From: Alphaproteobacteria bacterium
GTDB lineage: Bacteria; Pseudomonadota; Alphaproteobacteria; Acetobacterales; Acetobacteraceae
Length of the DNA: 33,312 bases
NCBI GenBank assembly: GCA_026400845.1
Contig: JAPLOH010000031.1
Span: 1 to 33,312, forward strand
Direction of reading: 5' to 3'
Positions within the stretch are counted from its first letter, which is position 1. Each line of letters starts with the position of its first letter. Below, piece by piece: positions 605 through 33,312 of the stretch. The translations under genes were made by a program, and so were the position numbers. The notes beneath the pieces were generated by a model. It was given only the letters and a program-made list of their open reading frames with translations. It was not told the DNA's origin and made no database searches.

Positions 605-1335
605 ATGAGCCGGTCCGCCGCCGCCACAATCGTCCTGAACCGCGCCGCCGAGCGCCCGGACGGCCGCCTCGAATTCCACCGCAAACTGCCCACCGCCGCA
701 CGGCACAAGATGATCGACGCCCTGCTGCGCGACGGCATCATCGCCAAGACCAAGGGCGACTACCGCCTCGGCGACGCCTCAACCCTGGTCGAGGACAGCG
801 CCAACGGGCTGATGCTCACCACCCTCGTCCTGACCGACGCCGGCTTCCGCGCCATCGACCGTGACCCGCCCGTGCCCGCCACGGACGCCAACACGGCGCA
901 ACACGCGGCTTCTGACGGGGCGGTGGCCCAGGAACCGCCGCGGTCGCCGACGCCCTCGACGCCGCCACTGTGGCGCCCACGCCGCGGGCCAACCTCCGCG
1001 CCGCCGCCGCCTCGGTGCTCGCCGCCTGGGACGACCAGGACAACCGCGATACCGACATCATCGCCGCCCTCGAGGCGCCAATGGAGGCGCTCCGCGCCCT
1101 GCTCGCCGAGAAGGCACCGCGCGAGGCGACCGCGCGGCGACGACAGGCCGATCGCCGGCACCCAGTTGATCCGCGAGTATCAGGGCGTCGAGCACGTCGT
1201 CACCGTCACCCGCGCGGCTACGACTACCAGGGCCGCCCCTACCAGTCCCTGTCCGCCATTGCCCGCGGCATCACCGGCACCCGCTGGAACGGGCGCGTCT
1301 TCTTCGGCCTGCGCCCGAGCCGAGGTGCAGCATGA
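605..1335 (+). pseudogene. Deletion-fused DUF3489 / DUF2924 remnant
   Basis: The ATG at 605 follows a good RBS. The first about 100 codons resemble the N-terminal part of DUF3489 proteins (RKLPTAARHKMIDALLRDG and LTDAGFRAIDRD). The frame then shifts between about 905 and 935, after which the neighbouring segment continues (ANLRAAAASVLAAWDDQDN, then ALEAPMEALRALLAEK). The DUF3489 domain that should follow is missing. Instead the sequence joins the C-terminal half of a DUF2924 protein (GTQLIREYQGVEHVVTVTR) in the first frame. A one-base deletion near 1214 moves the rest (GYDYQGRPYQSLSAIARGIT, ending RVFFGL) to another frame. The final TGA overlaps the recombinase ATG. In related genomes DUF3489, DUF2924 and a recombinase are consecutive genes, so this looks like a deletion between the first two plus small frameshifts. 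Confidence 0.7.
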
Positions 1336-12281: not shown

Positions 12282-13487
12282 TTACGGCTCGTTCCTCCAG
12301 AGTGGAAAAGGGTCGGGCAGAGTGGCCCAGGCCTTAGCGCCCGCCCGCATCTCCTTGTCGGTGAGCAGGCAGGCATCGAGCGCGGTGCGAATGGCGGCCT
12401 CGTCCATGCCGATCCCGATGAAGACGATTTCCTGGCGCCGGTCGCCGTACATCGGGTGCCAGGTCTTTCGGATCGTCTCCTGCCACTCTGGATCCTGGGG
12501 GCGGTTCTGCGGCGGGACGGCGGCCCACCAGAAGCCTGCGGCCTCGTGGCGGCCAACAGCACCGGCGAGCTGCCAGGAGCCGGCCCAGCGCATGCGGCTG
12601 GCCAGCCAGAAGAAGCCCTTGGCGCGGACCACTCCCCCGAGGTCGCCGCCGAGGAAGCGGTGGAAGCGCGTCGGGTGGAAGGGGCGCCTGGCGCGGTAGA
12701 CGAAGTTGGTGATGCCGAACTCCTCGCTCTCCGGCAGGTGTGCGCCGGCCAGCGCCTGGGCCCAGCCTGCCTGTTGCTGGGCGCGGGCGAAGTCGAAGCG
12801 CCCGGTGCCCATCACGCGGTCCAGCGGCACCTGGCCGTGCGTGGTGCGGACGATCTCGGCGCCCGGGTTGAAGGTTGCGAGGATGCCCTCAAGGCGCTTC
12901 AGTTCCGGCTCGCCGAGCAGGTCGGCCTTGTTCACCACGATCACGTCGGCGAACTCCACCTGCTCCACCAGCAGATCGACCAGCATCCGCCCATCGTCCT
13001 CGCCCGCGGTCTCGCCGCGCTGCTCCAGGCTGTCCTGGCTGGCATAGTCGCGTAGGAAGGCGGCTGCATCGACCACAGTCACCATGGTGTCGAGCCGGGC
13101 GCTGTCGGCGAGGCTGAACCCCTCCTCGGTGCGGAAGTCGAAGGTGGCCGCCACCGGCATCGGCTCGCTGATGCCGGTGCTCTCGATCAGCAGGTAGTCG
13201 AACCGCCCTTCGGCGGCCAGCCGCGCCACCTCCTGCATCAGGTCCTCGCGCAGGGTGCAGCAAATGCAGCCGTTCGACATCTCGACCAGCTTCTCCTCGG
13301 TGCGCGAAAGCTGGCCGGCATTGCCCACCAGGGCGGCATCGATGTTCACCTCGCTCATGTCGTTGACAATGACCGCCACGCGCTTGCCCTCGCGGTTGGC
13401 GAGCACGTGGTTGAGCAGGGTGGTCTTTCCTGCGCCGAGGAAGCCGGACAGGACGGTCACGGGCAGCAGCGTTCGGGCGGCGGTCAT
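12282..13487 (-). CDS. zigA: COG0523 GTPase, ZigA/ZagA-type zinc metallochaperone
   Basis: The 401-residue G3E GTPase has Walker [10 protein letters not shown] (15-23), the metal-binding CxCC in [12 protein letters not shown] (Cys74, 76, 77), ESTGISEP, and the guanine-specificity [14 protein letters not shown] after strand 2 and the long C-terminal domain ([27 protein letters not shown]) are typical of the about 400-residue ZigA/ZagA branch induced by zinc starvation, which delivers zinc to client enzymes. Its ATG overlaps the stop of the DUF1826 gene, so the two are co-translated. The divergent promoter upstream of DUF1826 carries a Zur-type operator at 14174-14190. The metal is inferred as zinc from the operator and subfamily. 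Confidence 0.88.
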
Positions 13488-14143
13488 TCGAAGATCCCGG
13501 TTTCATCAATACAAAGAAGGAGCCGAGCGCGGCGGCTGGGTGGCAGATGGCTGACCGGCGGGGAGCGGTGCAGTATCCCCGGGGCACAAGTAGGATGGCG
13601 ACTGCCCTTGAACAGGCCGACCTGGAGGCGCGCCATCCGGTGCAGCCGGCCCTGGGCGTCCTGCCACTGGGTGCCGGGGCCGGCATAGGTGCAGAGAAGG
13701 CGCAGACGAACGGCGTCGACATGGAACAGGCTGCAGGCATCGTCGTTGATATGTTCGAGCCGGAGACGGACCGTTCGGGTGCCTGCCACGGTGGCGAAGA
13801 TGTGAGCCAAGGCCGCGATATCAGCGCCGAGGGCGCCGGCCCGGCGCGACAGTTGCGCCTTCAGCGCACGCGCAGCTTCGTCAGGTGCACCGCTGGCCAC
13901 GAGGCAGCTTGCTGGCGCCGGCACCATCGCGGCAAGTTCGTGCGCTAGTGGGAGGCGCGGCCGACGATCCCATATCGCAAGGCCGATCCGGCGATCATGG
14001 ATGCGTGCCATCGCGCCTGGGCCAAGGCATTGCAGATGCTCGCCCCCGTGGCTCGAAGACCGCGAGCTGCTGCAGGTCCATACCTCGTCTGAGATGGCTG
14101 CGGCTGCGGGTGGCACCTCCTTGGAACCGGCACCCATGTCCAC
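13484..14143 (-). CDS. DUF1826 domain protein
   Basis: The protein has 219 residues. Recognisable features are [58 protein letters not shown] and the C-terminal [11 protein letters not shown]. Conserved His and Cys residues (FHVD, HRSPP) could bind metal. DUF1826 proteins are often encoded beside COG0523 GTPases under Zur; their biochemical role is not established. The start at 14143 lies 31 bases from the Zur-type operator. It is the first gene of the leftward transcript, overlapping zigA. An internal start is possible because the first 25 residues are low in conservation. Confidence 0.8.
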
Positions 14144-14173
14144 GTCTGCTTTCCTTCCGATCGATGGATTGTA

Positions 14174-14190
14174 ATGTTATACTATAACGT
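14174..14190. promoter_or_regulatory. Zur-type operator 1 (divergent promoter)
   Basis: ATGTTATACTATAACGT contains the perfect GTTATA-C-TATAAC palindrome centred on 14182, resembling the proteobacterial Zur box. It lies in the 80-base gap between the DUF1826 gene (leftward) and the binding-protein gene (rightward). It also includes TATACT/TATAAC elements that could serve as -10 boxes, so a bound repressor would block both directions. Confidence 0.8.
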
Positions 14191-14223
14191 CTATCGAGCA
14201 AGCCTTGTTCCCTGGAGGGTTCC

Positions 14224-15753
14224 ATGTTCCGCCGCTCCTTCACATTCCTGGTTGGCGCAGCGCTGGCTGGCGCCGGGCTGACAGCCGCGCCGGCCAGCGC
14301 CGACGAGCGCGTGCTCAATGTCGTAGCCCCCTGGCAGGTCACGTCGCTCGATCCGGCCGATACCGGCTACATCGCCGCGCGGATGGGGATCGCCGAGACG
14401 ATCATTGGCGTGGAGCCCGATGGCAAGCTGGTCGGGCTGGTTGCCTCCGGCTGGACCCTGGACGACGACCGCCTGACGTGGCGCTTCCCCGTGCGCGCCG
14501 GGCTGCGCTTTCATGATGGCACTCCGGTGACGCCGGCGGACATGATCGCGGCGATCGAGCGGGCGCGGGCCAGCGGCGAGACGCTGGCGGCGGTGCCGAT
14601 CGCCTCGATCAGCGCCGAGGGCTCGACGATGGTGTTGAAGACGACGACGCCGTTCGCCCCCTTGCCCGCCTTCCTGACCGACTACGCCGCCATCGTGCTG
14701 GCCCCCTCGGCGCGCGGGGCCGACGGCAAGATCGCCGCCTGGATCGGCACCGGCCCGTATCGCGTTACTGCCATCGATGGTGACCGCAGCGTGGACGTGG
14801 CCGCCTTCGACCGTGGTGGCGCGATGCCGGCTGTGCGCCGCGCGCGCTATCACGCGGTGCCGCAGGGTGAGACTCGGGCCTCGATGGTCGAGGCCGGCGA
14901 TGCGGATGTCGCCTATACGCTGCTTCCGGCCGCGGTGCCGCGCATCAACGCGGGCAGCCGGGCGAAGGTGCAAAGCATCACCATTCCGCGGGCGCGGGTG
15001 ATGCCGCTGAATGTCGGGCTACCGATCTTCGCCGACCTGCGGGTGCGCCAGGCGATCAACCTCGGAATCGACCGGGCGGGCATTGCCGCCGCCGTGCTGC
15101 GCCACCCGCCGAGTGCCGCGACGCAGTTGCTCCCGCCGATCCTGGCGGATTGGCACAACCCGGCGCTGCCGCCTTATGCTCGCGATGTCGCCCGCGCCCG
15201 GACGCTGCTTGCCGAGGCGGGCTGGAAGCCTGGCGAGGGCGGGGTGCTGCACAAGGACGGCGCGCCGTTACGCTTCACCATTCTGGTGCTGGCCAATCGC
15301 CCGGAGCTGCCGCCCATGGCAGCGGCGATGCAGGCCCAGCTGCGCGAGCTCGGCATCGACATGCAGATACGCACCGGGCCCGGCAGCATCGTGCCGCAGG
15401 CGCAGCGCGATGGCACCTTCCAGGCCGGGCTGGTCGGGCGCACCTATGTCAACGTGCCCGACCCGATCGCCACAATCCTGCCAGACTTCACCCGCGACAA
15501 GACGGTCTGGGCGCAGTCCGGCTGGATCAACGCTGAGATCCGCGCGCTGGTGCCGGAATACATCGCCAGCTTCGACGATGCCCGTCGTGCGGCGTTGCGC
15601 AAGCGCATCACCGAGATCCTGCATGCAGAACTGCCGGTGATCCCGGTGTCGTGGTTCGAGCATACCGTGGCGGTGTCCACCCGCGTGAAGCCGGTGCCGA
15701 TCGACCCCTACGAGCAGCGCTACCTGATCGACCGGATGGCATGGGCCAACTGA
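14224..15753 (+). CDS. ABC transporter binding protein, family 5 (peptide/nickel/metallophore type)
   Basis: The 509-residue precursor has a signal peptide (FRRSFTFLVGAALAGAGLTA, then APASADER; cleavage near SADE). It has the family-5 layout of DppA/NikA/OppA: LNVVAPWQVTSLDPADTGYI, LTWRFPVRAGLRFHDGTPVT, WIGTGPYRV, and a C-terminal EILHAELPVIPVSWFEHTVA. It has no histidine-rich metal loop, so binding of free zinc is not evident; a metal-chelate or peptide ligand fits the family better. GGAGGG lies four bases before the ATG, and Zur-type operator 1 is just upstream. It heads a four-gene overlapping operon. Zinc or zincophore import is inference from regulation. Confidence 0.88.
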   Translation: MFRRSFTFLVGAALAGAGLTAAPASADERVLNVVAPWQVTSLDPADTGYIAARMGIAETIIGVEPDGKLVGLVASGWTLDDDRLTWRFPVRAGLRFHDGTPVTPADMIAAIERARASGETLAAVPIASISAEGSTMVLKTTTPFAPLPAFLTDYAAIVLAPSARGADGKIAAWIGTGPYRVTAIDGDRSVDVAAFDRGGAMPAVRRARYHAVPQGETRASMVEAGDADVAYTLLPAAVPRINAGSRAKVQSITIPRARVMPLNVGLPIFADLRVRQAINLGIDRAGIAAAVLRHPPSAATQLLPPILADWHNPALPPYARDVARARTLLAEAGWKPGEGGVLHKDGAPLRFTILVLANRPELPPMAAAMQAQLRELGIDMQIRTGPGSIVPQAQRDGTFQAGLVGRTYVNVPDPIATILPDFTRDKTVWAQSGWINAEIRALVPEYIASFDDARRAALRKRITEILHAELPVIPVSWFEHTVAVSTRVKPVPIDPYEQRYLIDRMAWAN

Positions 15754-16694
15754 TCGGCGCGCTGGCGGCGCGGCTGGCACAGCTGGTCGCGATGCTGCTG
15801 GCTGTGGTACTGCTGTGCTTCGCCGCGATGCAGGCGCTGCCGGGCGACAAGGCGGTGCAGCTGGCCGTGGCGCGGCATGGCGAGCGCGCGGGCGAGGACG
15901 GGATTGCGCGCGCCAGCCGCGACGGCGGGTTCGACCGGCCGGTGGCGGCGCAGTTCGCCGACTGGGCGGGGCAGGTGCTTCGCCTCGATCTCGGGCATTC
16001 GCTGGTCAGCCGGCGGCCGGTGGTGGACGAGCTGTGGCCGCGGCTGCGGGTGACGCTGATCGCCGGCGGGCTTTCGGTGCTGCTTGGGGTGCTGGTCGGG
16101 GTGCCGCTCGGGGCCTGGGCCGGGTTGCGGCCGGGCGGGGTGGTGGATGGCGCGGTCGCGGTGGCGGCGGCGCTGTTCAGCGCGGTGCCGGCGTTCCTGC
16201 TGGGGCTGCTGCTGGTGATGCTGTTCGCGATCCGCCTCGGCTGGCTGCCGGCGGCCGGGGGCGGCACGGCGCTGCATTGGGTGCTGCCGATCTGTACCCT
16301 GGCGGTCGGTTTCGCCGCACCGCTGGCCCGGGTGACGCGCCAGGCGGTGGTGGAGGCGTGGGGCGCCTTTCCCGTGACCTTCGGCCGACTGAAGGGGTTG
16401 TCGCCGGTGCGGGCGGGGCTGCGCCATGGGGTGCGCAATGCGGCGATCCCGGTGGTGATGTTGACCGGGCTGCGCTTCGCCGCAGTGATCGAGGGCTTCG
16501 CGGTGATCGAGACGCTGTTCAACCTGCCGGGGCTGGGCGACCTGCTGGTTCGCGCGCTGGTGTCGCGCGACATTCCGACGGTGCAGGCTGCGGCCTTGCT
16601 GTTCGGGCTGCTGTACGGGGTGGTCGGCCTGGTGCTCGACGCGGCCTGCGCGGCGATCGATCCGCGCCGGCGGCTGCGGGTGCACCCGGCGTGA
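15741..16694 (+). CDS. ABC permease, DppB/NikB-like
   Basis: The 317-residue inner-membrane permease starts at an ATG inside the last codons of the binding-protein gene (13-base overlap). It begins with a membrane segment (LVAMLLAVVLLCFAAMQALP). FDRPVAAQFADWAGQVLRLD and DLGHSLVSRRPVVDELWPRL are diagnostic of the DppB/OppB family. The coupling region is LARVTRQAVVEAWGAFPV and the family tail IEGFAVIETLFNLPGLGDLL is present. The next permease starts at a GTG overlapping its stop. It is part of the predicted Zur-controlled importer. Confidence 0.9.
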   Translation: MGQLIGALAARLAQLVAMLLAVVLLCFAAMQALPGDKAVQLAVARHGERAGEDGIARASRDGGFDRPVAAQFADWAGQVLRLDLGHSLVSRRPVVDELWPRLRVTLIAGGLSVLLGVLVGVPLGAWAGLRPGGVVDGAVAVAAALFSAVPAFLLGLLLVMLFAIRLGWLPAAGGGTALHWVLPICTLAVGFAAPLARVTRQAVVEAWGAFPVTFGRLKGLSPVRAGLRHGVRNAAIPVVMLTGLRFAAVIEGFAVIETLFNLPGLGDLLVRALVSRDIPTVQAAALLFGLLYGVVGLVLDAACAAIDPRRRLRVHPA

Positions 16695-17455
16695 GGGGGT
16701 TGCCGCTGCTGTTGCTGGCCCCGGCGCTGCTGCTTGGGCTGCTGGGGCCGGGCTTCGCGCCCGATCCGCTGCGCCAGGAGCTGATGGCCACCCTGAGTCC
16801 GCCAAGCGGCGACTGGTTGCTGGGCACCGACGAGCTGGGACGTTCCGTGCTGGCGCGGCTGGCGCATGCCACGCGGGTGTCGGCGGGGCTGGCGCTGCTG
16901 TGCGTGGCCATCGCCTGGGGCGGCGGCACGCTGCTGGGCATCGTGGCGGCGTGGCGCGGCGGCTGGTCGGAGGCGCTGGTGTTGCGCGCGGCGGATACGC
17001 TGATGGCGTTGCCGGGGTTGCTGCTGACCCTGATCGTCGCCGGGCTGCTGGGCGGCGGGATGGTGGCGCTGGTGGCCGGGGTGGCGGTGGCGCAGTTGCC
17101 GGTGGCGATGCGGATGAGCCGGGCGCTGGCCGCCGGGGTGGTGGCGCGGCCGTTCGTGCAGGCGGGGCGGCTGGCGGGGCTTCCGGTGCCGGGGCTGCTG
17201 CTGCGCGACGTGCTGCCGCTGCTGCTGCCGCAGTTGGCGACGCAGGCGGCGTTGTCGGTGGCGCAGGCGGTGCTGAGCATCGCGGCGCTGGGCTTCCTGG
17301 GCATCGGCATCCATCCGCCGACGCCGGAGTGGGGCATGATGATCGCGGAGTCGGTCCCCTACATGGCCGAGGCGCCCTGGACGGTGCTGGCGCCGGCCGC
17401 GTTGCTGGTCGCCAGCGTGCTCGGGCTGGTGCTGCTGGCCGAGGCGGCGTCATGA
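16691..17455 (+). CDS. ABC permease, DppC/NikC-like
   Basis: The 254-residue protein is read from a GTG overlapping the previous TGA; no ATG lies near the start. GDWLLGTDELGRSVLARLAH and ATRVSAGLALL are hallmark DppC/OppC sequences. The coupling segment and the tail AALGFLGIGIHPPTPEWGMM with IAESVPYM also fit. It is shorter than usual DppC proteins (about 300 residues) because the N-terminal cytoplasmic extension is nearly absent. It overlaps the ATPase gene by an ATGA junction. It forms the membrane channel with the preceding permease. Confidence 0.88.
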   Translation: MRGLPLLLLAPALLLGLLGPGFAPDPLRQELMATLSPPSGDWLLGTDELGRSVLARLAHATRVSAGLALLCVAIAWGGGTLLGIVAAWRGGWSEALVLRAADTLMALPGLLLTLIVAGLLGGGMVALVAGVAVAQLPVAMRMSRALAAGVVARPFVQAGRLAGLPVPGLLLRDVLPLLLPQLATQAALSVAQAVLSIAALGFLGIGIHPPTPEWGMMIAESVPYMAEAPWTVLAPAALLVASVLGLVLLAEAAS

Positions 17456-18879
17456 GGGTGGCGCTGGTGGCCGAGGGCGTGGCGGTGCATGGGCCGGGCG
17501 GGGCCATCGTGCGACGGGTGGACCTTGCGGTGGCGCCTGGCGAGGCGGTGTGCCTTGTGGGCGAGACCGGGGCCGGGAAAAGCCTGATCGCCCAGGCGCT
17601 GTTGGGATTGCTGCCGGCCGGGCTGCGCGCCGCGGGGCGCATGGCGCTGGGCCAGGGCGGCTGGCGGGGGCTGGACCGGCCGGAGCAGCTGCGGGCCGGT
17701 TGGGGGCGCGAGATATTCCTGCTGCCGCAGGAACCCGGCGAGGCGCTGGACCCGACGATGCGCTTGGTGGGCCAGGTCGCTGATGCGGTGCCGGATGCGC
17801 CGCCGAACCGGGTGGCGCGCGCGCTGGCGCGGCTGGCCTCCTTCGGGCTGGACGGCGCAGCGGCGCGGCGAATTCCGGCAGCGCTGTCCGGCGGCATGGC
17901 GCAGCGCGGCTTGCTGGCGATCGCCGCGGAGTGCCCGGCGCCGGTCCTGGTCGCCGACGAGCCGACCAAGGGTCTGGACGGCGCCCGGCGCGCGGAAGTG
18001 GCCGAGGCCTTGCGCGCCATGATGGCCGCGGGGCGGGCCTTGCTGATCGTCACCCATGACCTCGCGCTGCCGGCGCTGCTCGACGCACGGATGCTCGTGC
18101 TGCACGAAGGGGTGCTGGTGGAGGAGGGGCCGGCCGCGCGCGTGCTGGCGGCGCCGCAGCATCCGTGGACAAGGCGGCTGATGGACGCCCAGCCGGCGAA
18201 CTGGCCCGCCCGCGTTGCGCCGCCGGCCGGCGAGATGCTGGTGGCCGCGCGCGGGCTGGGGTTCGGCTGGTCGGCACGGGATCGTCTGTTCACCGGGGTC
18301 GATCTTTCGCTGCGGGCCGGTGAGATTGTCGGGCTGGCAGGGCCGAGCGGGTCCGGCAAGTCGACGCTGTGCGACCTGCTGCTGGGGCTGCGCCGTCCCA
18401 ACGCGGGCCAGGTGCTGTGGCGCGGTGAGGACATAGCCGGGGCGGGGCGGCTGCGGCGCGCGGTGCAGCGCGCTGTCCAGAAGCTGTTCCAGGACCCCGG
18501 CGCCGCCTTCCCGCCGCATCGGCGGCTGCGTGCCGTGTTCGGGGATCTCGCCGCCGTCACAGAGGCGCCGCTCGACCGGCTGCCGCCGCTGCTCGAACGG
18601 CTGGGGGTGCGCGCCGACGTACTGGAGCGGCGTGTGGGCGAGATCAGCGGCGGCGAGGCGCAGCGGCTGGCGCTGGCACGCGCCCTGCTCCTGCGTCCGG
18701 CCGCGCTCATCGCCGACGAGCCGACTTCGCGGCTGGATGCGGTGACCCAGGCCGAGCTGTGCCGTCTGCTCCGCGATCTCGCCGACCGCGACGGGCTCGC
18801 GGTGCTGCTGGTCAGCCACGACGATGCGCTGCTGGCCGCTATGGCGTCGCGCACACTGCGGCTTTTGCTGCCTGGTTGA
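17452..18879 (+). CDS. Fused double ABC ATPase (DppD-DppF-like in one chain)
   Basis: The 475-residue protein contains two nucleotide-binding domains. Domain 1 has Walker A GETGAGKS (37-44), signature LSGGMAQ (145-151), Walker B/DEPT (169-172) and His202. Domain 2 has Walker A GPSGSGKS (297-304), Q-loop LFQDPG, signature ISGGEAQ (398-404) and DEPT (422-425). The peptide-transporter feature PQHPWTRRLMDAQP lies between the domains. DppD and DppF are usually two proteins; here one shortened chain supplies both. It powers the importer encoded just upstream and ends the operon. No terminator is obvious after the stop. Confidence 0.9.
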   Translation: MRVALVAEGVAVHGPGGAIVRRVDLAVAPGEAVCLVGETGAGKSLIAQALLGLLPAGLRAAGRMALGQGGWRGLDRPEQLRAGWGREIFLLPQEPGEALDPTMRLVGQVADAVPDAPPNRVARALARLASFGLDGAAARRIPAALSGGMAQRGLLAIAAECPAPVLVADEPTKGLDGARRAEVAEALRAMMAAGRALLIVTHDLALPALLDARMLVLHEGVLVEEGPAARVLAAPQHPWTRRLMDAQPANWPARVAPPAGEMLVAARGLGFGWSARDRLFTGVDLSLRAGEIVGLAGPSGSGKSTLCDLLLGLRRPNAGQVLWRGEDIAGAGRLRRAVQRAVQKLFQDPGAAFPPHRRLRAVFGDLAAVTEAPLDRLPPLLERLGVRADVLERRVGEISGGEAQRLALARALLLRPAALIADEPTSRLDAVTQAELCRLLRDLADRDGLAVLLVSHDDALLAAMASRTLRLLLPG

Positions 18880-19338: not shown

Positions 19339-20313
19339 TCAGCCTTGCGTGGCCAGGCAGGCCTCGAAGCCGCGGCGCAACTGCGGACGGTTCAGGTTGC
19401 GCCCGATGAACACCAGCTTGGAGCGCCGCGGCGCCCCGTCGCGCCAAGGGCCGACGAAATCGCCATCTGCGATCATGTGCACCGCCTGGAACACGAAGCG
19501 CTCGTTCTCACCGGCAAAGTCGAGAATCCCCTTGGTGCGCAGCAGGTCGCCACCGCGAGTCGTCAGCAACTCGCCGATCCATTCCTGGAACTTCCCCTGG
19601 TCGAGCGGCGCGTCGGCCTCCAGGCTCACGGACTGGATCGCGTCGTCGTGCTCGTGCTCGTTCTCGCCAGAGAGGAAGGCGGGCTCCATCTCCAGCACCC
19701 GGTTGAGGTCGAAGGCGCCGCGATCGAGCAGTTCGGCGATCGGCACCGCGCCGTGCTGCGCGTGGTGCAGGGTTGCGTGTGGATTGATCGAGCGGATGCG
19801 GCGCTCGACCGCCGCGAGTTCGTCGGCGCTGACCAGATCGGTCTTGTTCAGCACGATCACGTCGGCGAAGGCCACCTGCTCCTCCGCCTCGTGGCTGTCC
19901 TCCAGCCGGGCCAGCAGGTGCTTGGCATCGACCACGGTGACGATGGCATCGAGCCTTGTGCGTTCGCGCACCGTCTCGTCGACGAAGAAGGTCTGCGCCA
20001 CCGGGGCCGGATCGGCCAACCCCGTGGTCTCGATGATGATGCCGTCCAACCCCCGTCGCTTGATCAGCCCGCCGACGATACGGATCAGGTCGCCGCGCAC
20101 GGTGCAGCAGATGCAGCCGTTGTTCATCTCGAACACCTCCTCGTCGACATCGACGACGAGGTCGTTGTCCACACCCAGCTCGCCGAACTCGTTGATCACC
20201 ACGGCATACTTGCGGCCATGGTTGCCGGTAAGAATGCGGTTCAGCAGCGTGGTCTTGCCGGCGCCGAGATAGCCGGTGAGCACCGTGACGGGGATCGGGG
20301 CGGGTGCGTCCAT
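19339..20313 (-). CDS. COG0523 (CobW/YjiA-like) GTPase
   Basis: The 324-residue G3E GTPase has Walker A GYLGAGKTT (14-22), CxCC in NNGCICCTVRGDL (Cys67, 69, 70), [16 protein letters not shown] and NKTD. The CobW C-terminal domain follows (QSVSLEADAPLDQGKFQEW, LLRTKGILDFAGENERFVFQ). A short acidic/histidine stretch (GENEHEHDDA) may bind metal. It starts 12 bases after the next COG0523 gene on the same strand, so it belongs to the hisI-led transcript. It represents a different subfamily from the 401-residue protein at 12282-13487. Metal delivery is the expected role; zinc is inferred from the Zur-type operator. Confidence 0.88.
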   Translation of the reverse strand: MDAPAPIPVTVLTGYLGAGKTTLLNRILTGNHGRKYAVVINEFGELGVDNDLVVDVDEEVFEMNNGCICCTVRGDLIRIVGGLIKRRGLDGIIIETTGLADPAPVAQTFFVDETVRERTRLDAIVTVVDAKHLLARLEDSHEAEEQVAFADVIVLNKTDLVSADELAAVERRIRSINPHATLHHAQHGAVPIAELLDRGAFDLNRVLEMEPAFLSGENEHEHDDAIQSVSLEADAPLDQGKFQEWIGELLTTRGGDLLRTKGILDFAGENERFVFQAVHMIADGDFVGPWRDGAPRRSKLVFIGRNLNRPQLRRGFEACLATQG

Positions 20314-20325
20314 GGGCGTGTCTCC

Positions 20326-21423
20326 TCAGGCGGAATGGGCGGGTGAAGGGGCAGCGGCATCGAGCCCGGCCGACAGGAAGGCTGCGAGGCTGGCTTCAAT
20401 CGCAGCGCGCGGCAGATCCCGCACGATGAAGACGATGCGCGAGCGGCGATCGGCGCCCGCGGGCCAGGCCGCCAGTTGCACGGTGGGGTGGAACACGTGT
20501 TGCACGGCATGCAGCACCACTGGGCGGTCCTCGCCGGCGAGGTTGAGCAGGCCCTTGACCCGCAGCAGGGAGTCGCCGCGGGTGGCCGTGATCATGTCGA
20601 GCCATGTCGCCAGTGCCGTCAGTGGCAGCGGTTGGTCGAAGGTGAGGCAGAACGAATGGATCCGCGCGTCATGCCGGTTGGGGTCGTGTGCGTGCTGGTG
20701 GTGATGGCCGTGATCGGCGTGGGCATGGCCGGCGTGGTGGTGGTGCGTGTGGTCCTCGTGATGCGCCGCGCCGTGAAGCCATTCCATGACCGCCTCGGGC
20801 CGCGCCGAGGGATCATAGGGTCCGGCCGACATCACCAGGGCCGGGTCGATGCAGCCTTGGTTGGCGCGGTGGAGCGGTGCGCCCGGGTTCAGCAACCGCA
20901 ACCGCGCCTCGAGCGCTGCGACGACTTCAGGCGCTGCAATGTCGGCCTTGGTCACAAACAGCCGGTCCGCGACCGCCGCCTGGCGCACCGCCTCGAACTG
21001 GGCATCCAGCGTCGCCATGCCATTGACGGCATCGACAGTTGCCACCACGCCGTCCAGAACGAACTGCCCCAATATCAAGGTGTCAGCCATCAAAGTCTGT
21101 AGAATGGGCGCCGGGTCAGCCAATCCCGTCGTCTCGATCACCACGCGGGCGATCGGATGACCCTGCGCCATTCGGTCCTGTAGCCCCGCCAGCGCGCGCA
21201 CCAGATCGCCGCGGATGGTGCAGCACAGGCAACCGGCGTTCAGCAGCACGGTGTCGTCGTCCAGATGTTCGACCAGCAGGTGGTCGAGCCCAACCTCGCC
21301 GAACTCGTTGATCAGGACGGCGGTATGTGCCGCTTGCGGGTGCTTCAGCAGCCGGTTGACCAGCGTTGTCTTGCCGGAGCCGAGAAATCCGGTGAGTACC
21401 GTGACGGGAATGCGCTCCAACAT
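20326..21423 (-). CDS. COG0523 (CobW-like) GTPase with histidine-rich insert
   Basis: The 365-residue protein starts at an ATG at 21423 ([20 protein letters not shown]). Walker A is at 12-20, CxCC is in [13 protein letters not shown] (Cys65, 67, 68), and [14 protein letters not shown] follows. The nucleotide-specificity motif is TKAD rather than NKxD. Residues 217-256 contain 18 histidines (for example [20 protein letters not shown]), a probable metal-storage or transfer segment between the GTPase and C-terminal domains. The C-terminal domain is typical ([20 protein letters not shown]). It begins five bases after hisI and ends 12 bases before the next COG0523 gene. It is probably a zinc metallochaperone. 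Confidence 0.9.
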
Positions 21424-21428
21424 TGCGG

Positions 21429-21830
21429 TCACGCCCCGTACAGCGTGGCAGGGTCCACACGCGGCGCGTCGATCTCGCACCATGTGTCGTCGCGGGCTTC
21501 CCAGGAGAAGCACGACCGCCGCCCGGTGTGGCAGGCAACTCCGTGCTGGTCGACCAGCGCCAGCAGCGCGTCGCCGTCGCAATCCAGGCGCAGCGCCACC
21601 AGGTGCTGCTGCTGGCCGGAGGTCTCACCCTTGCGCCACAAGCCGTTGCGGCTGCGCGAATAGTAGCAGACGCGACGGGTGGCCAGGGTCTCCAGCACGG
21701 CGTCGCGGTTCATCCAGGCCATCATCAGGATCTCGCCGGTGTCGTGCTGCTGGGCGATGCATGGCACCAGACCCGCATCGTTCCAGGCAATCGTGGCGAG
21801 AAGGGCATTCGGCTGCACATCGTGTCTCAT
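21429..21830 (-). CDS. hisI: Phosphoribosyl-AMP cyclohydrolase (HisI-like), Zur-linked
   Basis: This 133-residue protein of the HisI family catalyses the third step of histidine synthesis, opening the adenine ring of phosphoribosyl-AMP. It has [37 protein letters not shown], the metal motif DCDGD (83-87), and [12 protein letters not shown] with Cys100 and Cys107. The family's zinc cysteines (84, 100, 107) and magnesium aspartates are all present, so it is not visibly a zinc-free substitute. No other his genes are nearby. The ATG lies six bases from a Zur-type operator and no Shine-Dalgarno is visible. It heads a transcript with two COG0523 GTPases, which may metallate it. HisI paralogues in Zur regulons are known. 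Confidence 0.88.
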
Positions 21831-21836
21831 GATGAT

Positions 21837-21853
21837 ATGTTATACTATTACAT
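21837..21853. promoter_or_regulatory. Zur-type operator 2 (hisI-cobW-cobW promoter)
   Basis: ATGTTATACTATTACAT differs from operator 3 by one base in the right half-site (TATTAC for TATAAC) and is centred on 21845. It lies in the 75-base gap between hisI (leftward) and the end of the alcohol dehydrogenase gene, only six bases before the hisI ATG. That leaves no room for an ordinary ribosome-binding site. Confidence 0.78.
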
Positions 21854-21905
21854 TTCCTGACGCCAGCACTGTCCCTACGACGGCGTGAGCCGGAAGCGGT
21901 CCGCG

Positions 21906-23063
21906 CTACCAGGCCGCGCGATACAGCGCCTCAAAGTCGTCGGCAGCGAGCGGGCGGGGATTGCTGCGGTTGACCGGATCGTTCACCGCATCCGCCACCA
22001 GAAGCGGCAGCAGCTCGTTCGTGCCGCCGAGGTCGCGGATGGTCCGGTCCAGGCCGATGTCCCGGCGCAGCGCGACGATCGCATCGAGCGCGCGCTGGCC
22101 ATTGCCCTGCGATCCGTCGGCCGGATCGGCCACCCCGAGCGCATCGGCGACACGGGCATACTGCGAGTAGGCAACCGGCATGTTGGCCGCCATCACATGC
22201 GGCAGCATGGTGGCGAGGGTCTGGCCATGCGCGGCGTTCAGCCGGGCTGACAGGGCGTGGCCGGTGCCGTGCGCCGCCCCCAGCCCGGAGACGTTGAAGG
22301 CAATTGCCGCCATGCTGGAGGCCAGCATCATCTGCGCTCGCGCCTCGAGGTTTTCGGGCTCGCGCATCACGATGGGCAGATTCGTGGCGACCATGCGGAT
22401 CGCCTGCAGGGCGACACCGTCCGAATACGGCGTGGTGCGGGACGATGAGCAAGCTTCCACCGCGTGCGTCAGCACGTCGCAGCCGCAGGTCGCAGTCGGA
22501 TAGGGCGGCAGCTTCAGGGTAAGAACGGGGTCGAGCAGCGAGACGACCGGCACGATGCTGGGGTGCACGACATAGGTCTTGCGGCCCAGCGCGGTGTTGG
22601 TGATCACACAGGCCGAGTTGGTCTCCGATCCTGTCCCGGCCGTCGTCGCCACCGCGATCACCGGCACGCCGGGCTGGCGCGGCGGCGTGGCCTGCAGCGC
22701 CGCGACCGATCCGGGATTGGGCCCCAGCAGCGCGATTGCCTTGCCGCAATCCATCGCCGATCCGCCGCCGATGGCGATCACTACCGGATCAGCCAAGCTG
22801 CGCAGCAAGGCTGCACCATCCTCGACATTGCGGTCGGTGGGATTGGCCTCGACCCCGTCGAACACCTTGACCGTGATTCCGTCGGCGGCCAGGCGCTCCA
22901 GCATAGGCGTGATCACCCCGGCGCGCATCAGGCCGGGATCGGTGACCACCATGGCGCAACTGCGACCCAATGCCCGGACATGGCCGGCCAGGCCGAGTGA
23001 GGAGCCGACCCCGAAGACAATGCTCGGCAGGGGGCGGATGGTGAAGGTCTTCTCTGACAGCAT
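21906..23063 (-). CDS. Iron-containing (group III) alcohol dehydrogenase
   Basis: The 385-residue protein is read from an ATG at 23063, preceded by GAGG seven bases away. The NAD-binding motif is IAIGGGSAMDCGKAIAL (GGGSAMD 99-105), and TTAGTGSETNSACVIT follows. The metal ligands are Asp196 and His200 (GCDVLTHAVEA), His265 (AAHGTGHALSARLNAAHGQT) and His279, the same spacing as in FucO. It should oxidise an alcohol or reduce an aldehyde using NAD(P) and Fe(II). It faces zur across an intergenic region carrying the perfect Zur-type palindrome, about 120 bases from this start. An iron enzyme replacing a zinc-dependent dehydrogenase during zinc limitation would make sense, but this gene's control by that operator is inference. 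Confidence 0.88.
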   Translation of the reverse strand: MLSEKTFTIRPLPSIVFGVGSSLGLAGHVRALGRSCAMVVTDPGLMRAGVITPMLERLAADGITVKVFDGVEANPTDRNVEDGAALLRSLADPVVIAIGGGSAMDCGKAIALLGPNPGSVAALQATPPRQPGVPVIAVATTAGTGSETNSACVITNTALGRKTYVVHPSIVPVVSLLDPVLTLKLPPYPTATCGCDVLTHAVEACSSSRTTPYSDGVALQAIRMVATNLPIVMREPENLEARAQMMLASSMAAIAFNVSGLGAAHGTGHALSARLNAAHGQTLATMLPHVMAANMPVAYSQYARVADALGVADPADGSQGNGQRALDAIVALRRDIGLDRTIRDLGGTNELLPLLVADAVNDPVNRSNPRPLAADDFEALYRAAW

Positions 23064-23185: not shown

Positions 23186-23208
23186 GATATGTTATACTAT
23201 AACATATC
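23186..23208. promoter_or_regulatory. Zur-type operator 3, perfect 23-bp palindrome
   Basis: The half-sites GATATGTTATA and TATAACATATC flank a central C at 23197. All 11 base pairs are perfect. The element ends three bases before the zur start codon and lies in the divergent zur/alcohol dehydrogenase interval. It overlaps TATACT-type -10 sequences. It is the strongest of the three operators and implies zur autoregulation. Confidence 0.85.
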
Positions 23209-23211
23209 TCT

Positions 23212-23733
23212 ATGCCAGCGCCTTTGCCCTCCATTGTCGCATCCGACCTCGCCCGAGGCGCCGTAGCGGTACGGGGTAGGGCGCGCGGGCGTGTCCTGAC
23301 ACCGCTGCGGCGTGCCGTGCTCGATCTGTTGCATCCAGCGGTCCGGCCCATCGGGGCCTATGCATTGTTGGAGCATCTGCGCACGACCCATCCGCAGGCG
23401 GCGCCGCCGACCGTGTATCGCGCCCTGGCCTTCCTGCTGGAGGAAGGACTCGTCCATCGCATAGAGCGGCTGAACGCCTTCATCGCGGCTGGCGAGCAAC
23501 GGGCGGCTCCGGGCACCGTTCAGGTCGCGGGAAAGGTCCAGTTTCTCATCTGCGACCGTTGTGGACACACGGCCCAACTCCACGACCCCACAGTGGTCGA
23601 CGCTTTGGCACAGGTCATGGATCGCCTGGGCTTCGTCGCCTGTGACGCGACGATTGAGCTTCAGGGCGTCTGTGCCACGTGCTCCGTCGCCGACATCCCT
23701 GGCGGCAGTGCCGCCCGCCATGCAGGACCATGA
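23212..23733 (+). CDS. zur: Zinc uptake regulator Zur, Fur family
   Basis: The 173-residue transcription factor has an N-terminal winged helix (TPLRRAVLDLL, YALLEHLRT, PPTVYRALAFLLEEGLVHRI) that contacts the operator. The C-terminal dimerisation domain carries Cys114/Cys117 (CDRC) and Cys154/Cys157 (CATC). The 40-residue separation equals that of Escherichia coli Zur, and HxH-type ligands (RCGHTAQLHD) follow the first pair. Zinc-loaded Zur represses high-affinity uptake genes. The operator ends three bases before the ATG, so there is no Shine-Dalgarno; the mRNA may be leaderless. The stop overlaps the next ATG (ATGA). Zur rather than Fur is supported by the operators and the COG0523/HisI neighbours. 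Confidence 0.88.
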   Translation: MPAPLPSIVASDLARGAVAVRGRARGRVLTPLRRAVLDLLHPAVRPIGAYALLEHLRTTHPQAAPPTVYRALAFLLEEGLVHRIERLNAFIAAGEQRAAPGTVQVAGKVQFLICDRCGHTAQLHDPTVVDALAQVMDRLGFVACDATIELQGVCATCSVADIPGGSAARHAGP

Positions 23734-24188
23734 CCATGACCGCGACCACATTGTCCGCCTCCGCGCCAGGCGACACCATTCGCGCGCCCTCGACGGTGGT
23801 CCTCGTCTGCACACGCTGCCGCTCCGCGATCCATGATCCTGACCGGCCACGCTGTGGCACCACACTGTTGGAAGCCGTGCAGGACGCCGCCAAGAGCGAC
23901 CCCGCGCTGCGAGTTCAGGGTGTCGCATGCATGTCCGGTTGCACGCGCGCCTGCGTTGCCGCTGTGCTGGGGCCGGACAAGGTTGGCTACCTGTTCGGCG
24001 ACCTGGCCCCAGGCAACACCAGTGCCGCAGATCTGCTGCGGATGGCGCGGCTTCATGAGGCACGCCCCGACGGTTTCGTTGCACGCGCTGACCGGCCGGA
24101 TCGCCTGCGAGCCGGCATCATTGGTCGCCTGCCACCGCTGCGCTGGATCGCCTCGGCCGGCCCGGAGATCGCCTGGCCAGCGCGATGA
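23730..24188 (+). CDS. DUF1636 cysteine-rich metal-binding protein
   Basis: The 152-residue protein has Cys27 and Cys30 (VLVCTRC), Cys42, and Cys67, Cys71 and Cys75 (ACMSGCTRAC). This DUF1636 pattern resembles thioredoxin-fold ferredoxin or metal-binding proteins. VGYLFGDLAPGN and a basic C-terminus follow. The start overlaps the zur stop, and a second ATG two codons later is also possible. Translational coupling to zur and an ATGA overlap with the next gene point to a shared role in metal handling. Whether it binds zinc, cobalt or an iron-sulfur cluster cannot be told from sequence; the function is unknown. Confidence 0.8.
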   Translation: MTMTATTLSASAPGDTIRAPSTVVLVCTRCRSAIHDPDRPRCGTTLLEAVQDAAKSDPALRVQGVACMSGCTRACVAAVLGPDKVGYLFGDLAPGNTSAADLLRMARLHEARPDGFVARADRPDRLRAGIIGRLPPLRWIASAGPEIAWPAR

Positions 24189-24571
24189 CCGCCGCGACAG
24201 CCACCGTCCGCACCAACGACGTCACCGAGCGCGAGCGCATCTGGCAGCGCTTCACCGGCGACGACTGGACCTGCTTCGATGCCTTGCCCCCCGCACTGCG
24301 CCAGCGACTGCGCGAGCACGCCTACGATGCCTGGGCGGTGAACGCCTGGACCGCCTGGCGCACCGAACGCCGCCGCGTCGGCAGTGAGCGCGCTCAGCGT
24401 AGGCTGCTCCGCTGGCTCGACGAGTGCGAACGATTGGAGCGCGCAGCCTTCGCCGAGAGCTATCGCCGCCGATACGAAGCGGCATTGCCGCACGATGCGG
24501 CGCGAGTAACAGTGCTGCGCTACGGGCGACCCGTGACGCCAGCCGTCCAGCTACCACGCCGCTGCCCGTAA
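24185..24571 (+). CDS. Hypothetical protein, tryptophan/arginine-rich
   Basis: I do not recognise the family with confidence. The 128-residue product is soluble and helical, with many Trp and Arg residues: ERIWQRFTGDDWTCFDALPP, then ALRQRLREHAYDAWAVNAW, then RRLLRWLDECERLERAAFAE. It has no signal peptide or membrane segment and only two cysteines. The start overlaps the DUF1636 stop (ATGA), and an MFS exporter gene follows 52 bases later. Codon use matches its neighbours and the frame is tightly packed, so it is very likely a real gene of the zur transcript. Confidence 0.7.
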   Translation: MTAATATVRTNDVTERERIWQRFTGDDWTCFDALPPALRQRLREHAYDAWAVNAWTAWRTERRRVGSERAQRRLLRWLDECERLERAAFAESYRRRYEAALPHDAARVTVLRYGRPVTPAVQLPRRCP

Positions 24572-24623
24572 CTCCGCCAAGCCCAAAGCCAGGCACGCAA
24601 ATCCGCGCCGAAGGACCACGCGC

Positions 24624-25880
24624 ATGCCTGGCACGCCACCCAACGCGAATTCCCTGCCACCTCCGGGCGGAGTTCGGTCGACGCCCTTCCTGCGACTCTG
24701 GGCCGGCAGCACTGCGTCTGGGCTGGCCACTTGGGCGTTGCCCTTCGTTCTGGGCCTGGCCGTCCTTGAAGGTGCCCTGACCGCCATGCAGCTCGGCCTG
24801 GTGCTGGCCGCGCGTACCACCGGGTTCCTGGCCGCCATGCCGGTCAGCGGCGTTCTGGCCGACCGTTTCGCTCGGCGCGGCGTGGTGCTCTATGCCAGTC
24901 TGCTCGCAGCGATGGGCATTCCGGTGTTGCTCCTCATGCTCGGCAGCACAAGCCCGTCCGCCCCTGCCCTGATGATGCTCGGGGCCGCGATCGCCGGCAT
25001 GGGCCAGGGCGCCTGCCGCCCCGCTTACCAGGCGCTGGTCCCGCTGGTCGTGGGGCGCGACGGACTCCAGGCGGCGAATGCGGCGATGAGCATCTCGGTG
25101 CGCGTGACCGCGCTTCTCGGCCCCACCCTGGCCACCGCCCTGGCGGTGACAGTCAGCGCGCGCGCCACGCTCGCGGTGATCATCGTGATGTGGCTGGCCA
25201 GCGCGTTCCTGCCGCCCCGCCCTGCGGAGCCGCCACGCACCGGTGCAGCCAGGCTGACCGGTTCCGGTTTCCCGGCGGACTTCGCCGATGGCTTCCGCGA
25301 AGCAGGCCGCCACCCCTGGTTCATCGCCGGTCTTGCCGCTCTCACCACGGTGATCTGCCTGGGCTACTCGGTGACCGGCGTGATCCTGCCCATCGTCAGC
25401 CGTGACCGCACCGGCGGCGCCGCACTGCTGGTCGCCGCGACCACCGCCTACACGTTCGGCGCCTTGCTCGGGGCCTTGCTGACTGCGCGCTGGCGCCCCC
25501 GCCACCAGGGCTGGTCGGCGCTGGCCGGGCTGGCGCTCTATTGCCTGGTGCCGTTCAGCCTGCTGGCTGATCTGCCGCTCGTAGTGCCGCTGGCGGCGTT
25601 CCTGCTGGCAGGTGTCGGGATCGAACTGTTCAACGTGCCCTGGTTCACCGCCACCCAGCGCGAAGTGCCGCCGGAGAGGCTCGCGCGCGTGACCTCGATT
25701 GACTTCCTGTTCTCATACGGCCTCGCCCCGCTTGGCCTGGCGGCGATCGCTCCGGCGGCCGAGGCGTTCGGCATCGCGCCGGTTCTGGCGGTGTGTGGCA
25801 CCGCTTGCCTGCTCGCCCCCCTCGTCGCGATGCTGCCGCGCAGCAGCCGCGGCTTCACCAGCCGCCCGGCCCGTGGATGA
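24624..25880 (+). CDS. MFS transporter, exporter-like
   Basis: The 418-residue inner-membrane protein has about 12 hydrophobic segments. The MFS motif between helices 2 and 3 is SGVLADRFARRGVVLYASLL. The charged loop after helix 4 (GQGACRPAYQALVPLVVGRD) and ELFNVPWFTATQREVPPERL before the last helices resemble drug or siderophore exporters of the EntS/MFS-3 type. AAGGA lies nine bases before the ATG. It sits 52 bases after the hypothetical gene and probably belongs to the zur transcript. Possible roles are metallophore export or metal efflux; no metallophore biosynthesis genes are in the window. Confidence 0.85.
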   Translation: MPGTPPNANSLPPPGGVRSTPFLRLWAGSTASGLATWALPFVLGLAVLEGALTAMQLGLVLAARTTGFLAAMPVSGVLADRFARRGVVLYASLLAAMGIPVLLLMLGSTSPSAPALMMLGAAIAGMGQGACRPAYQALVPLVVGRDGLQAANAAMSISVRVTALLGPTLATALAVTVSARATLAVIIVMWLASAFLPPRPAEPPRTGAARLTGSGFPADFADGFREAGRHPWFIAGLAALTTVICLGYSVTGVILPIVSRDRTGGAALLVAATTAYTFGALLGALLTARWRPRHQGWSALAGLALYCLVPFSLLADLPLVVPLAAFLLAGVGIELFNVPWFTATQREVPPERLARVTSIDFLFSYGLAPLGLAAIAPAAEAFGIAPVLAVCGTACLLAPLVAMLPRSSRGFTSRPARG

Positions 25881-25944: not shown

Positions 25945-26454
25945 ATGACGAATCAGGCGCAAGTAGAAAACAGGTCTGCCCAGATCGCCGACCTCCCCCT
26001 GATCACTGACATCTACAATTACTATGTGCTTCATGCGCAAACCCCCTTCGCCACCGAACCCGATTCGGTCGAGAGCCGCATGCCGTGGTTCGAATCCTTC
26101 GACGACGGACGCTATCGCCTGCTTGTCGCCGACGCCGAAGGGAGCATCCTCGGTTGGGCCAGCAGCAGCCGCTACCGCCCCTCCGAGCCGTTCGACCGGA
26201 CGGTGGAGAGCAGCATCTATCTTCATCCCAAATGCCGTACACGCGGCGTCGGGTCGCTGCTCTACGATGGGCTTTTCGCAATCCTGCAGACGCAGCCTAT
26301 CAACGTGGTGTTGGCAGGCATTGCCCTTCCGAATGACGCGTCTGTCGCACTGCACCGGAAGTTCGGCTTTGAAGAGGTTGGGACCTTCCGAGAATATGCT
26401 CGCAAGCGCGGTGCATGGATCAGCTCGGCGTGGTTTCAAAAACAAGTCGGGTGA
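25945..26454 (+). CDS. GNAT N-acetyltransferase, phosphinothricin acetyltransferase-like
   Basis: The 169-residue protein has the Pat/Bar subfamily layout. ADLPLITDIYNYYVLHAQTP starts the fold, ESRMPWFES precedes the sheet, and GWASSSRYRPSEPFDRTVES matches the typical substrate loop. The acetyl-CoA loop is RTRGVGSLL, and GFEEVGTFREYARKRGAW closes the protein. It would transfer acetyl from acetyl-CoA to a small amine, often a toxic amino acid or methionine sulfone analogue. It lies 64 bases after the MFS gene on the same strand, but linkage to zinc control is uncertain. Confidence 0.88.
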   Translation: MTNQAQVENRSAQIADLPLITDIYNYYVLHAQTPFATEPDSVESRMPWFESFDDGRYRLLVADAEGSILGWASSSRYRPSEPFDRTVESSIYLHPKCRTRGVGSLLYDGLFAILQTQPINVVLAGIALPNDASVALHRKFGFEEVGTFREYARKRGAWISSAWFQKQVG

Positions 26455-32858: not shown

Positions 32859-33312
32859 CGATGCCTGGGGGATCGAAGCGATTGGCCGCCTCCGTCAGCA
32901 GATCGGTGATGTGCTGCTGCAGCACAGTCTGCACCAGGTGTGGATCGGCCCCGAGGTCCGCGGCGATGAGGCCGGAGACCCGGGCGGGCCAGTTCAGCAA
33001 GGCGTCGCGCATAGCGCCGGCAATCTCGTCGATCGCGGCGTTCGCGGTCTGAGCGTCGAGCAGCCGGCCCTTGTCCTCGTCCAGCGCCATGCGCTGGGCT
33101 TCGACCTTCAGAGCAAGCTGCGCGACCTTCAGCCGGGCGTAGGGCGTAGCATCGCTGGACATGGACCCACCGGCGCCGCCGCCCGCCAGGGGTGAACGCA
33201 CCGGATCGGCGGTCTCCACCATGCGGCGTCGGGTCTTCTCGACGTCCCATTGGCCGTCCGGCTCGCGCTCGATCCGTCCCTTGGTGGCGGCCTTGCGCAA
33301 GGCGGTCTCGGT
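32839..33312 (-). CDS. Phage terminase small subunit, 5' end outside window
   Basis: The C-terminal 157 codons of a Nu1-like small subunit run open to the window edge. The sequence begins inside the HTH (TETALRKAATKGRIEREPDG) and continues through a Gly/Ser linker and the helical stretch KVAQLALKVEAQRMALDEDK. It ends with LLTEAANRFDPPGIGGRSDG. The stop overlaps the large-subunit start. It is the paralogue of the gene at 1-369, which supplies the missing N-terminus pattern (MPELTPSTREAARRIGV). Confidence 0.82.
   Translation of the reverse strand, partial: TETALRKAATKGRIEREPDGQWDVEKTRRRMVETADPVRSPLAGGGAGGSMSSDATPYARLKVAQLALKVEAQRMALDEDKGRLLDAQTANAAIDEIAGAMRDALLNWPARVSGLIAADLGADPHLVQTVLQQHITDLLTEAANRFDPPGIGGRSDG
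32996..33312. repeat. Long direct repeat, right copy (prophage terminase region)
   Basis: This is the partner of positions 1-317: same orientation, constant offset of 32995 bases, no gaps, about 90% identity by hand count. Because both copies run off the window ends, the full length and any flanking att-like sequence cannot be judged here. Confidence 0.9.

Follow-up and report, generated by a model that had tools for sequence, protein, structure and literature searches.

A zur-like gene with DUF1636, DUF6525 and a major facilitator transporter: a putative zinc-starvation operon in an Acetobacteraceae genome

In Paracoccus denitrificans, the gene run pden1338-1344 is reported to encode a COG0523 GTPase, two hypothetical proteins and a nickel/dipeptide-type ATP-binding cassette (ABC) importer; its members were found to be 8.6-16-fold up in zinc-depleted medium and Zur was found to bind the pden1338 and pden1341 promoters (PMC5387054, which like every paper named below is cited from excerpts of its text). 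Two further kinds of described system come close to the operon studied here, namely the loci of ZigA and other COG0523 metallochaperones, where Haas et al. 2009 reported DUF1826 in Zur-regulated clusters (PMC2770081), and the Zur-controlled metallophore clusters of coelibactin, ethylenediamine-disuccinate (EDDS) and pseudopaline (PMC6103462). Our study concerns a 33,312-nt stretch of an Acetobacteraceae genome (contig JAPLOH010000031.1; the whole stretch is called the window, with features on the strands as given), in which a zur-like gene is followed by genes for a DUF1636 protein, a 128-residue DUF6525 protein and a major facilitator superfamily (MFS) transporter. This zur operon very probably belongs to the zinc-starvation response. 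With moderate confidence it is taken as a Zur-repressed operon of zinc scavenging and allocation in which MFS, DUF1636 and DUF6525 have the roles proposed below; for the four specific biochemical roles taken together the confidence is much lower than for membership in the zinc-starvation response. The reading is built on computed features: the gene order, the Zur-type boxes, the folds, the linkage of DUF6525 with a box and ZigA, and one DUF1636 clade with zinc-context genes.

The gene order given in a first-pass annotation of the window, its ATGA junctions and the 52-base gap before the MFS gene were all confirmed from the coordinates: zur overlaps DUF1636 at 23730-23733, DUF1636 overlaps DUF6525 at 24185-24188 and the gap covers 24572-24623. 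All four proteins exceed the Pfam gathering scores. The regulator carries a FUR domain (PF01475, 32.8 bits against a cut-off of 23.1) and its best NCBIfam model is Zur (NF008646); as its 98.3 bits stay under the equivalog cut-off of 167, it is called zur-like. A perfect inverted repeat, GATATGTTATA-C-TATAACATATC, occupies 23186-23208 and ends 3 bases ahead of the zur start, so that the gene carries a putative Zur box at its own promoter; this box scores 21.7 with a motif made from published P. denitrificans Zur sites. Three such boxes precede the zur/iron-containing alcohol dehydrogenase, hisI-cobW-cobW and DUF1826-ZigA/SBP5 units, and the SBP5-type ABC importer stands behind the one at 14171. 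Published Zur regulons contain COG0523 GTPases, DUF1826 and ABC importers (PMC2770081, PMC6103462, PMC5387054), and the surrounding ~14 kb is therefore read as a zinc-starvation island with the zur operon as one of its arms.

Like the window, pden1338-1344 combines a COG0523 GTPase, small hypothetical proteins and a nickel/dipeptide-type ABC importer under Zur; unlike it, the window spreads these genes over three divergent units and has its DUF6525 gene behind zur together with DUF1636 and MFS. The ZigA/COG0523 loci share Zur control, COG0523 and DUF1826 with the window, and a search of the excerpted text of that paper found no COG5469 and DUF only as DUF1826, leaving DUF6525 and DUF1636 unmentioned there (PMC2770081). 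The coelibactin, EDDS and pseudopaline clusters share Zur control and, as far as can be inferred, the logic of an exporter paired with an ABC importer, whereas no biosynthesis gene was found among the window proteins scanned (PMC6103462). The literature matches listed included none recognised as a study of Zur in acetic acid bacteria.

The 128-residue protein had been described as a Trp/Arg-rich unknown. Its composition is as stated (6 Trp and 25 Arg by count), and it does have a family, PF20135/DUF6525 (44 bits against a cut-off of 23.5), which is described but uncharacterised. The literature search by family name found no paper on DUF6525, and PF20135 occurred in none of the matches listed. 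The family was found in 12 genomes of a 60-genome set, the window's own included. For the neighbourhood survey the best 80 of 101 confirmed stretches from named genomes were used, 79 from Acetobacteraceae (Acetobacter, Gluconobacter, Komagataeibacter, Asaia, Roseomonas and others) and one from a proteobacterial metagenome-assembled genome (MAG). Some of these loci come from one genome and many from related species, hence they are not 80 independent events; 11 of them are shorter than 12 kb and some flanks are cut. Outside annotated records the genes were called by codon usage, which missed some short genes, and key absences were for this reason repeated on six-frame translations.

Boxes were sought with two matrices, one of 23 bp trained only on the three window boxes and the other derived from five published P. 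denitrificans Zur sites. The threshold for a box was the 99th percentile of the scores at 460 control gene starts, to be exceeded by a site upstream of the DUF6525 transcription unit; each unit offered 1.6 starts on average, of which the best one counted, whereas a control had a single start. With the window matrix 74 of the 80 loci had such a site. The Paracoccus matrix found one in 76 (the misses being L110, L133, L166 and L174), and in 74 loci it was the best site of the whole locus. A ZigA-type GTPase is present in half of the loci (40/80) at a median distance of 14 bp, in 39 cases on the same strand and at most 150 bp upstream, and DUF1826 accompanies DUF6525 in 25/80. As judged from these sequence patterns, DUF6525 is a predicted Zur-regulon gene of the Acetobacteraceae; its zinc link is strong, and new within the searches made. 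The closest parallel to zur with DUF6525 was observed in the MAG (L110, 4527-9384), where zur-cobW is divergent from DUF1826-DUF1826-ZigA-DUF6525; the matrices used gave no strong box there.

The linkage was also found in a second family, the Rhodobacteraceae, where DUF6525 is present in 91 of 248 genomes. Forty loci were picked down a list of 97 places, and within 4.5 kb of DUF6525 these hold ZigA (19/40), DUF1826 (12/40) and SBP5 (7/40). Against 115 control starts, and with on average 2.1 starts per unit, the Paracoccus matrix placed 27/40 loci above the 95th and 20/40 above the 99th percentile, and the window matrix 26/40 and 24/40 respectively. A short form of DUF6525 occurs on 20 plasmid records, 7 of them from Paracoccus. 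The annotated order is GTPase-DUF1826-DUF6525 on the plasmids of P. versutus and Paracoccus sp. MA and GTPase-DUF6525 on that of P. alcaliphilus, and in none of these three records is an SBP5 importer next to DUF6525. In the Paracoccus sp. MA plasmid (L383, 2982-6255) the GTPase is annotated as zigA, with hisI and another GTPase gene divergent from it; the parts list of this locus (hisI, a GTP-binding-protein gene, zigA, DUF1826, DUF6525) matches that of the window island. Another locus, L334, has the order ZigA-DUF1826-DUF6525-SBP5-NikB-NikC-NikDE and thus shares both order and gene number with pden1338-1344. By analogy with this locus and with the annotated Paracoccus plasmids, the two hypothetical pden proteins are probably DUF1826 and DUF6525, pden1340 being assigned to DUF6525 because the order of L334 equals that of pden1338-1344 (a comparison of order only, not of sequence). 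The survey thus probably explains one of the two unnamed proteins in the strongly induced Paracoccus zinc operon.

The DUF1636 protein matches PF07845 with 98.3 bits (cut-off 31.6) and holds the six cysteines noticed before, C27, C30, C42, C67, C71 and C75, of which C27, C30, C67 and C71 are invariant and C75 nearly so among 45 DUF1636 sequences. Its structural model (mean predicted local distance difference test score, pLDDT, 87.1) was found to superpose on PDB 9jn8 with Z 17.8 over 109 residues at 35% identity and on PDB 1m2a with Z 10.0, and 9jn8 was also retrieved by sequence (E 7.7e-12). By its model the protein is of a thioredoxin-like ferredoxin fold, with putative binding of a [2Fe-2S] cluster; a thioredoxin-like fold had already been predicted for the family (PMC4520260). 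The family is shared with Rhodobacter capsulatus ORF378 (PDB 9jn8), a thioredoxin-like ferredoxin known here from its PDB title and molecule name, and unlike ORF378 as so known, the window protein is encoded in a zur operon. No paper on 9jn8 was recognised among the literature matches listed.

The neighbourhoods of 63 DUF1636 copies were surveyed, including those of the window, of the second copy in this genome and of one plasmid copy, the other listed places being left out. B12 genes are near 32 of them, a COG0523 GTPase near 29, FecB/FecCD near 12 and SBP5/Nik near 4, and 15 have none of the reference genes nearby. One clade of five (support 98/94) has zinc-type neighbours, four members lying beside SBP5/Nik and one beside zur-cobW. 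Its gene orders are box-DUF1826-DUF1636-SBP5-NikBC (L294), box-DUF1636-NikB (L289), a weaker box followed by DUF1636-SBP5-NikBC (L291), ZigA-like GTPase-DUF1636-SBP5-NikBC-NikDE with no box found (L297), and zur-cobW divergent from DUF1636-luciferase-like-FecB-like-FecCD with a weak box only (L293). In a further locus (L299) a box precedes DUF1636-ATPase-FecCD. The survey shows a second, zinc-linked context of DUF1636 besides its commonest B12 neighbourhood. A simple copying of the window gene from the B12 operon of the family was considered and rejected, the window copy lying outside the Acetobacteraceae cobN clade. In three loci of the genus to which the window belongs (L004 10106-14762, L104, L105) a divergent DUF1636 was observed within a FecB/FecCD-type uptake cluster, which also includes PCuAC and CopC/CopD-like genes, named by reading the sequences.

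The MFS protein matches PF07690 with 112.1 bits (cut-off 33.4) and reaches 49.1 bits with the EntS-type siderophore exporter model NF007792, missing its cut-off of 324. In the other 59 genomes full-length relatives do not exceed 31% identity, and partial matches go to 34%; the Alphaproteobacteria search, in which up to 4 candidates were scored per genome, gave no relative at E<=1e-25 from any of 384 other genomes. In the PDB the MFS protein is matched best by chains of SLC37A4 (E about 1e-6), which is uninformative. Plasmid records gave seven matches, the five best from Pelagibacterium sp. H642 (62% identity), Streptomyces (59% and 57%), Nonomuraea (57%) and Ochrobactrum (49%); the other two (31%) were left out of the neighbourhood comparison. 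FecBCD-type importers adjoin the MFS gene in four of these five relatives (49-62% identity), an SBP5 gene and permeases are adjacent in Nonomuraea, and both Streptomyces loci also contain DUF364 together with a GHMP kinase and a pyridoxal phosphate (PLP) enzyme, one of them also a methyltransferase. From their gene content, the Streptomyces plasmid clusters (L317 1-6242; L320 1196-9095), with DUF364-GHMP kinase-PLP enzyme-FecBCD-MFS, look like small metallophore clusters. In the three actinobacterial loci a Zur-like box was counted where at least 12 of 15 positions agree with the Zur consensus of S. coelicolor (given in PMC2823685); in each locus the sole site of this quality is intergenic and upstream of the MFS or neighbouring transporter genes, and randomised intergenic sequences did as well in 2, 0 and 0 of 1000 cases. 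Literature searches on EDDS/zincophore and on DUF364 returned nothing useful.

From these observations the following course may be proposed. Under zinc shortage Zur would come off its box at 23186, with joint transcription of zur, DUF1636, DUF6525 and MFS as the result. The MFS protein may export or recycle a small metal chelator, and the loaded chelator may re-enter through the SBP5-type ABC importer of the island. In the cytosol, DUF1636, as a thioredoxin-like ferredoxin, could help to unload the metal or to hand it on, and DUF6525, small and helical, could assist the COG0523 GTPase ZigA as its partner in passing the metal to client proteins.

A number of observations weigh against this proposal. 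DUF1636 and MFS are each beside DUF6525 in none of the 120 other loci (the 80 named and the 40 of Rhodobacteraceae), and the order zur-DUF1636-DUF6525-MFS was found in no other genome examined; zur itself is beside DUF6525 in 5 of the 120. DUF1636-DUF6525 as a conserved pair is rejected on this count, and although seven of the 60 genomes hold both families (G000, G012, G015, G020, G025, G033 and G057), these are together only in that of the window. The first-pass annotation had put forward the trio behind zur as a linked unit of metal-handling or metallophore function, to be doubted if there were neither conserved linkage nor a metal phenotype, and of these two the absence of conserved linkage is what the survey found. 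Among the Rhodobacteraceae, 13 of the 40 loci lack an upstream box at the 95th percentile, among them L334, which has none by either matrix, and most of the invariant residues of the long form of DUF6525 are missing from the short one. The window DUF1636 lies outside the zinc-linked clade and pairs (97/86) with a copy that stands in a B12 operon on a Methylibium plasmid, so that its zinc link rests on its own operon and on the analogous cases. Zinc is not redox-active, and a ferredoxin role for DUF1636 is therefore not obvious. The two alphaproteobacterial MFS loci have no Zur-like box, and that of Ochrobactrum has no FecBCD neighbour either. The Pfam scan of 29 window proteins showed no gene for the biosynthesis of a metallophore (chelator), and the search for one did not extend to the rest of the genome. 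No Zur box could be recognised in the intergenic region of the second zur of this genome (L257, G000:C246:5481-5909). What stands of the earlier suggestion is metal handling and Zur control, each part having zinc- or metallophore-type neighbours elsewhere; with no biosynthesis gene among the window proteins scanned, its metallophore part rests on the relatives of the exporter and on the SBP5-type importer. The parts of the trio are nevertheless drawn from one functional pool.

A different role for DUF6525 is raised by its C-terminus. The model of this protein is all-helical (pLDDT 78.5); it has no PDB fold match at E<=0.001 (Foldseek) and a best second-look Z of 4.4, an outcome that rules out no fold. 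Its last ~35 residues resemble the end (the last helix) of the cobaltochelatase subunit CobS. The window protein is ruled out as a CobS itself, since it matches the NCBIfam CobS model by the tail only (positions 292-326 of 327) and with 17.6 bits against a cut-off of 558.55. That model matches 3 of 15 DUF6525 members at E<=0.1 (best E 0.0017), the top three PDB matches of the DUF6525 profile are all CobS chains (E 0.0039-0.023), a CobS-tail profile finds 14 of 81 DUF6525 proteins at E<0.1 and none of the 81 when reversed, and the hhalign score with CobS is 32.6 (P 3.7e-4, probability 36%), whereas the highest of 69 control profiles reaches 22.4. The likeness is consistent but short, and as a sequence-based lead it points to a possible shared docking helix. 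It is doubtful, though conceivable, that DUF6525 imitates the CobS tail under Zur control, as a small adaptor of zinc starvation which employs the surface usually offered by CobS and so redirects COG0523 GTPases or the cobaltochelatase; if true, a single protein would switch directly between the allocation of zinc and the insertion of cobalt into vitamin B12.

On such a view the operon would manage cobalt and not zinc delivery: the copied CobS helix would compete with CobS or dock the COG0523 GTPase, cobalt insertion into B12 would slow down under zinc shortage so that cobalt could stand in for zinc, and DUF1636, whose commonest home is near B12 genes, would be part of the same switch. Cupriavidus metallidurans is reported to flood zinc-starved cells with cobalt (PMC11340326). 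We consider this reading unlikely, as the CobS match is weak and confined to about 35 residues, the short Rhodobacteraceae DUF6525 has no CobS-like tail, the main neighbour of DUF6525 is ZigA, and a CobS gene was found in 0/120 DUF6525 loci by six-frame comparison (E<=1e-5). Less probable again is that the trio are mere passengers, unrelated genes put behind the zur promoter by a mobile region, with the MFS (and the GNAT acetyltransferase after it) as an ordinary drug or metabolite exporter: the gene order is unique in the searches made, the four genus relatives have no DUF6525, relatives of the MFS are rare, and a serine recombinase and phage terminase and tail genes flank the region, but the close coupling by ATGA junctions, the fitting positions of the three boxes, the independent link of DUF6525 to Zur in two families and the metal-transport genes beside most of the closest MFS relatives speak against it.

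The survey gives DUF6525 a regulatory home (Zur) in two families of bacteria, with ZigA as its main partner. To our knowledge it has yet to be settled how COG0523 GTPases reach their clients, and a conserved, co-encoded small protein such as DUF6525 would provide a direct handle on this.

Table 1. Positions of the operon, the putative Zur boxes and neighbouring features in the window.
Feature	Position	Strand	Basis or remark
Serine recombinase	1332-2636		Pfam scan
ZigA, zinc metallochaperone GTPase	12282-13487	-	NF038288, 640.8 bits, curated cut-off 600 passed
DUF1826	13484-14143	-	PF08856, 124.9 bits
Putative Zur box	14171-14193	.	Between DUF1826-ZigA (-) and SBP5 ABC operon (+)
SBP_bac_5 binding protein, two permeases, double ATPase: nickel/peptide/metallophore-type importer	14224-18879	+	Pfam scan
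COG0523/CobW-type GTPase	19339-20313	-	Pfam scan
COG0523/CobW-type GTPase	20326-21432	-	Overlaps hisI if the predicted GTG start is right
hisI, phosphoribosyl-AMP cyclohydrolase	21429-21830	-	NF000768, 160.2 bits, cut-off 126
Putative Zur box, 20/22 positions	21834-21856	.	Upstream of hisI
Iron-containing alcohol dehydrogenase (Fe-ADH)	21906-23063	-	Divergent from zur, Zur box common to both
Putative Zur box, perfect 11-1-11 palindrome	23186-23208	.	Between zur (+) and Fe-ADH (-)
zur-like regulator, FUR family	23212-23733	+	PF01475 and NF008646 matches
DUF1636, predicted thioredoxin-like ferredoxin fold, six Cys	23730-24188	+	PF07845, model, PDB 9jn8
DUF6525, 128 aa, all-helical model, CobS-like C-terminus	24185-24571	+	PF20135
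MFS transporter, MFS_1	24624-25880	+	PF07690
GNAT acetyltransferase	25945-26454	+	Pfam scan

The island is an extra zur locus of this genome. The second zur (G000:C246) has 46% identity to that of the window and stands beside hisI-cobW, a layout also found at the zur loci of genus members and of several relatives. The zur loci retrieved from the four genus relatives yielded no Zur box, and with none at the second zur the window motif cannot be taken as a genus-wide Zur box; the second zur may have drifted or been re-tuned as a regulator. When 40 genomes, its own included, were searched with 14.2 kb of the window, no island besides that of the window itself appeared among the matches listed, those elsewhere being at most about 2.3 kb long at 64-85% identity.

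Phage-type terminase and tail genes lie at 27.9-32.9 kb, next to a 317-base direct repeat of 90% identity at the window ends (1-317 and 32996-33312). Together with the serine recombinase, the phage-type genes suggest, short of proof, that the region is mobile or assembled.

The GNAT gene starts 64 bases past the MFS gene and is possibly the end of the zur-DUF1636-DUF6525-MFS transcript. Its GC content is 0.59 as compared with 0.67-0.72 in the operon, and its product belongs to the ArsN/phosphinothricin acetyltransferase type (122.6 bits with NF040504, where the cut-off is 210). On the other side of the zur box, the Fe-ADH gene has a parallel in the actinobacteria, where the Zur-regulated genes include an alcohol dehydrogenase, adhA (PMC2823685); the window gene likewise stands behind a Zur box, which it has in common with zur.

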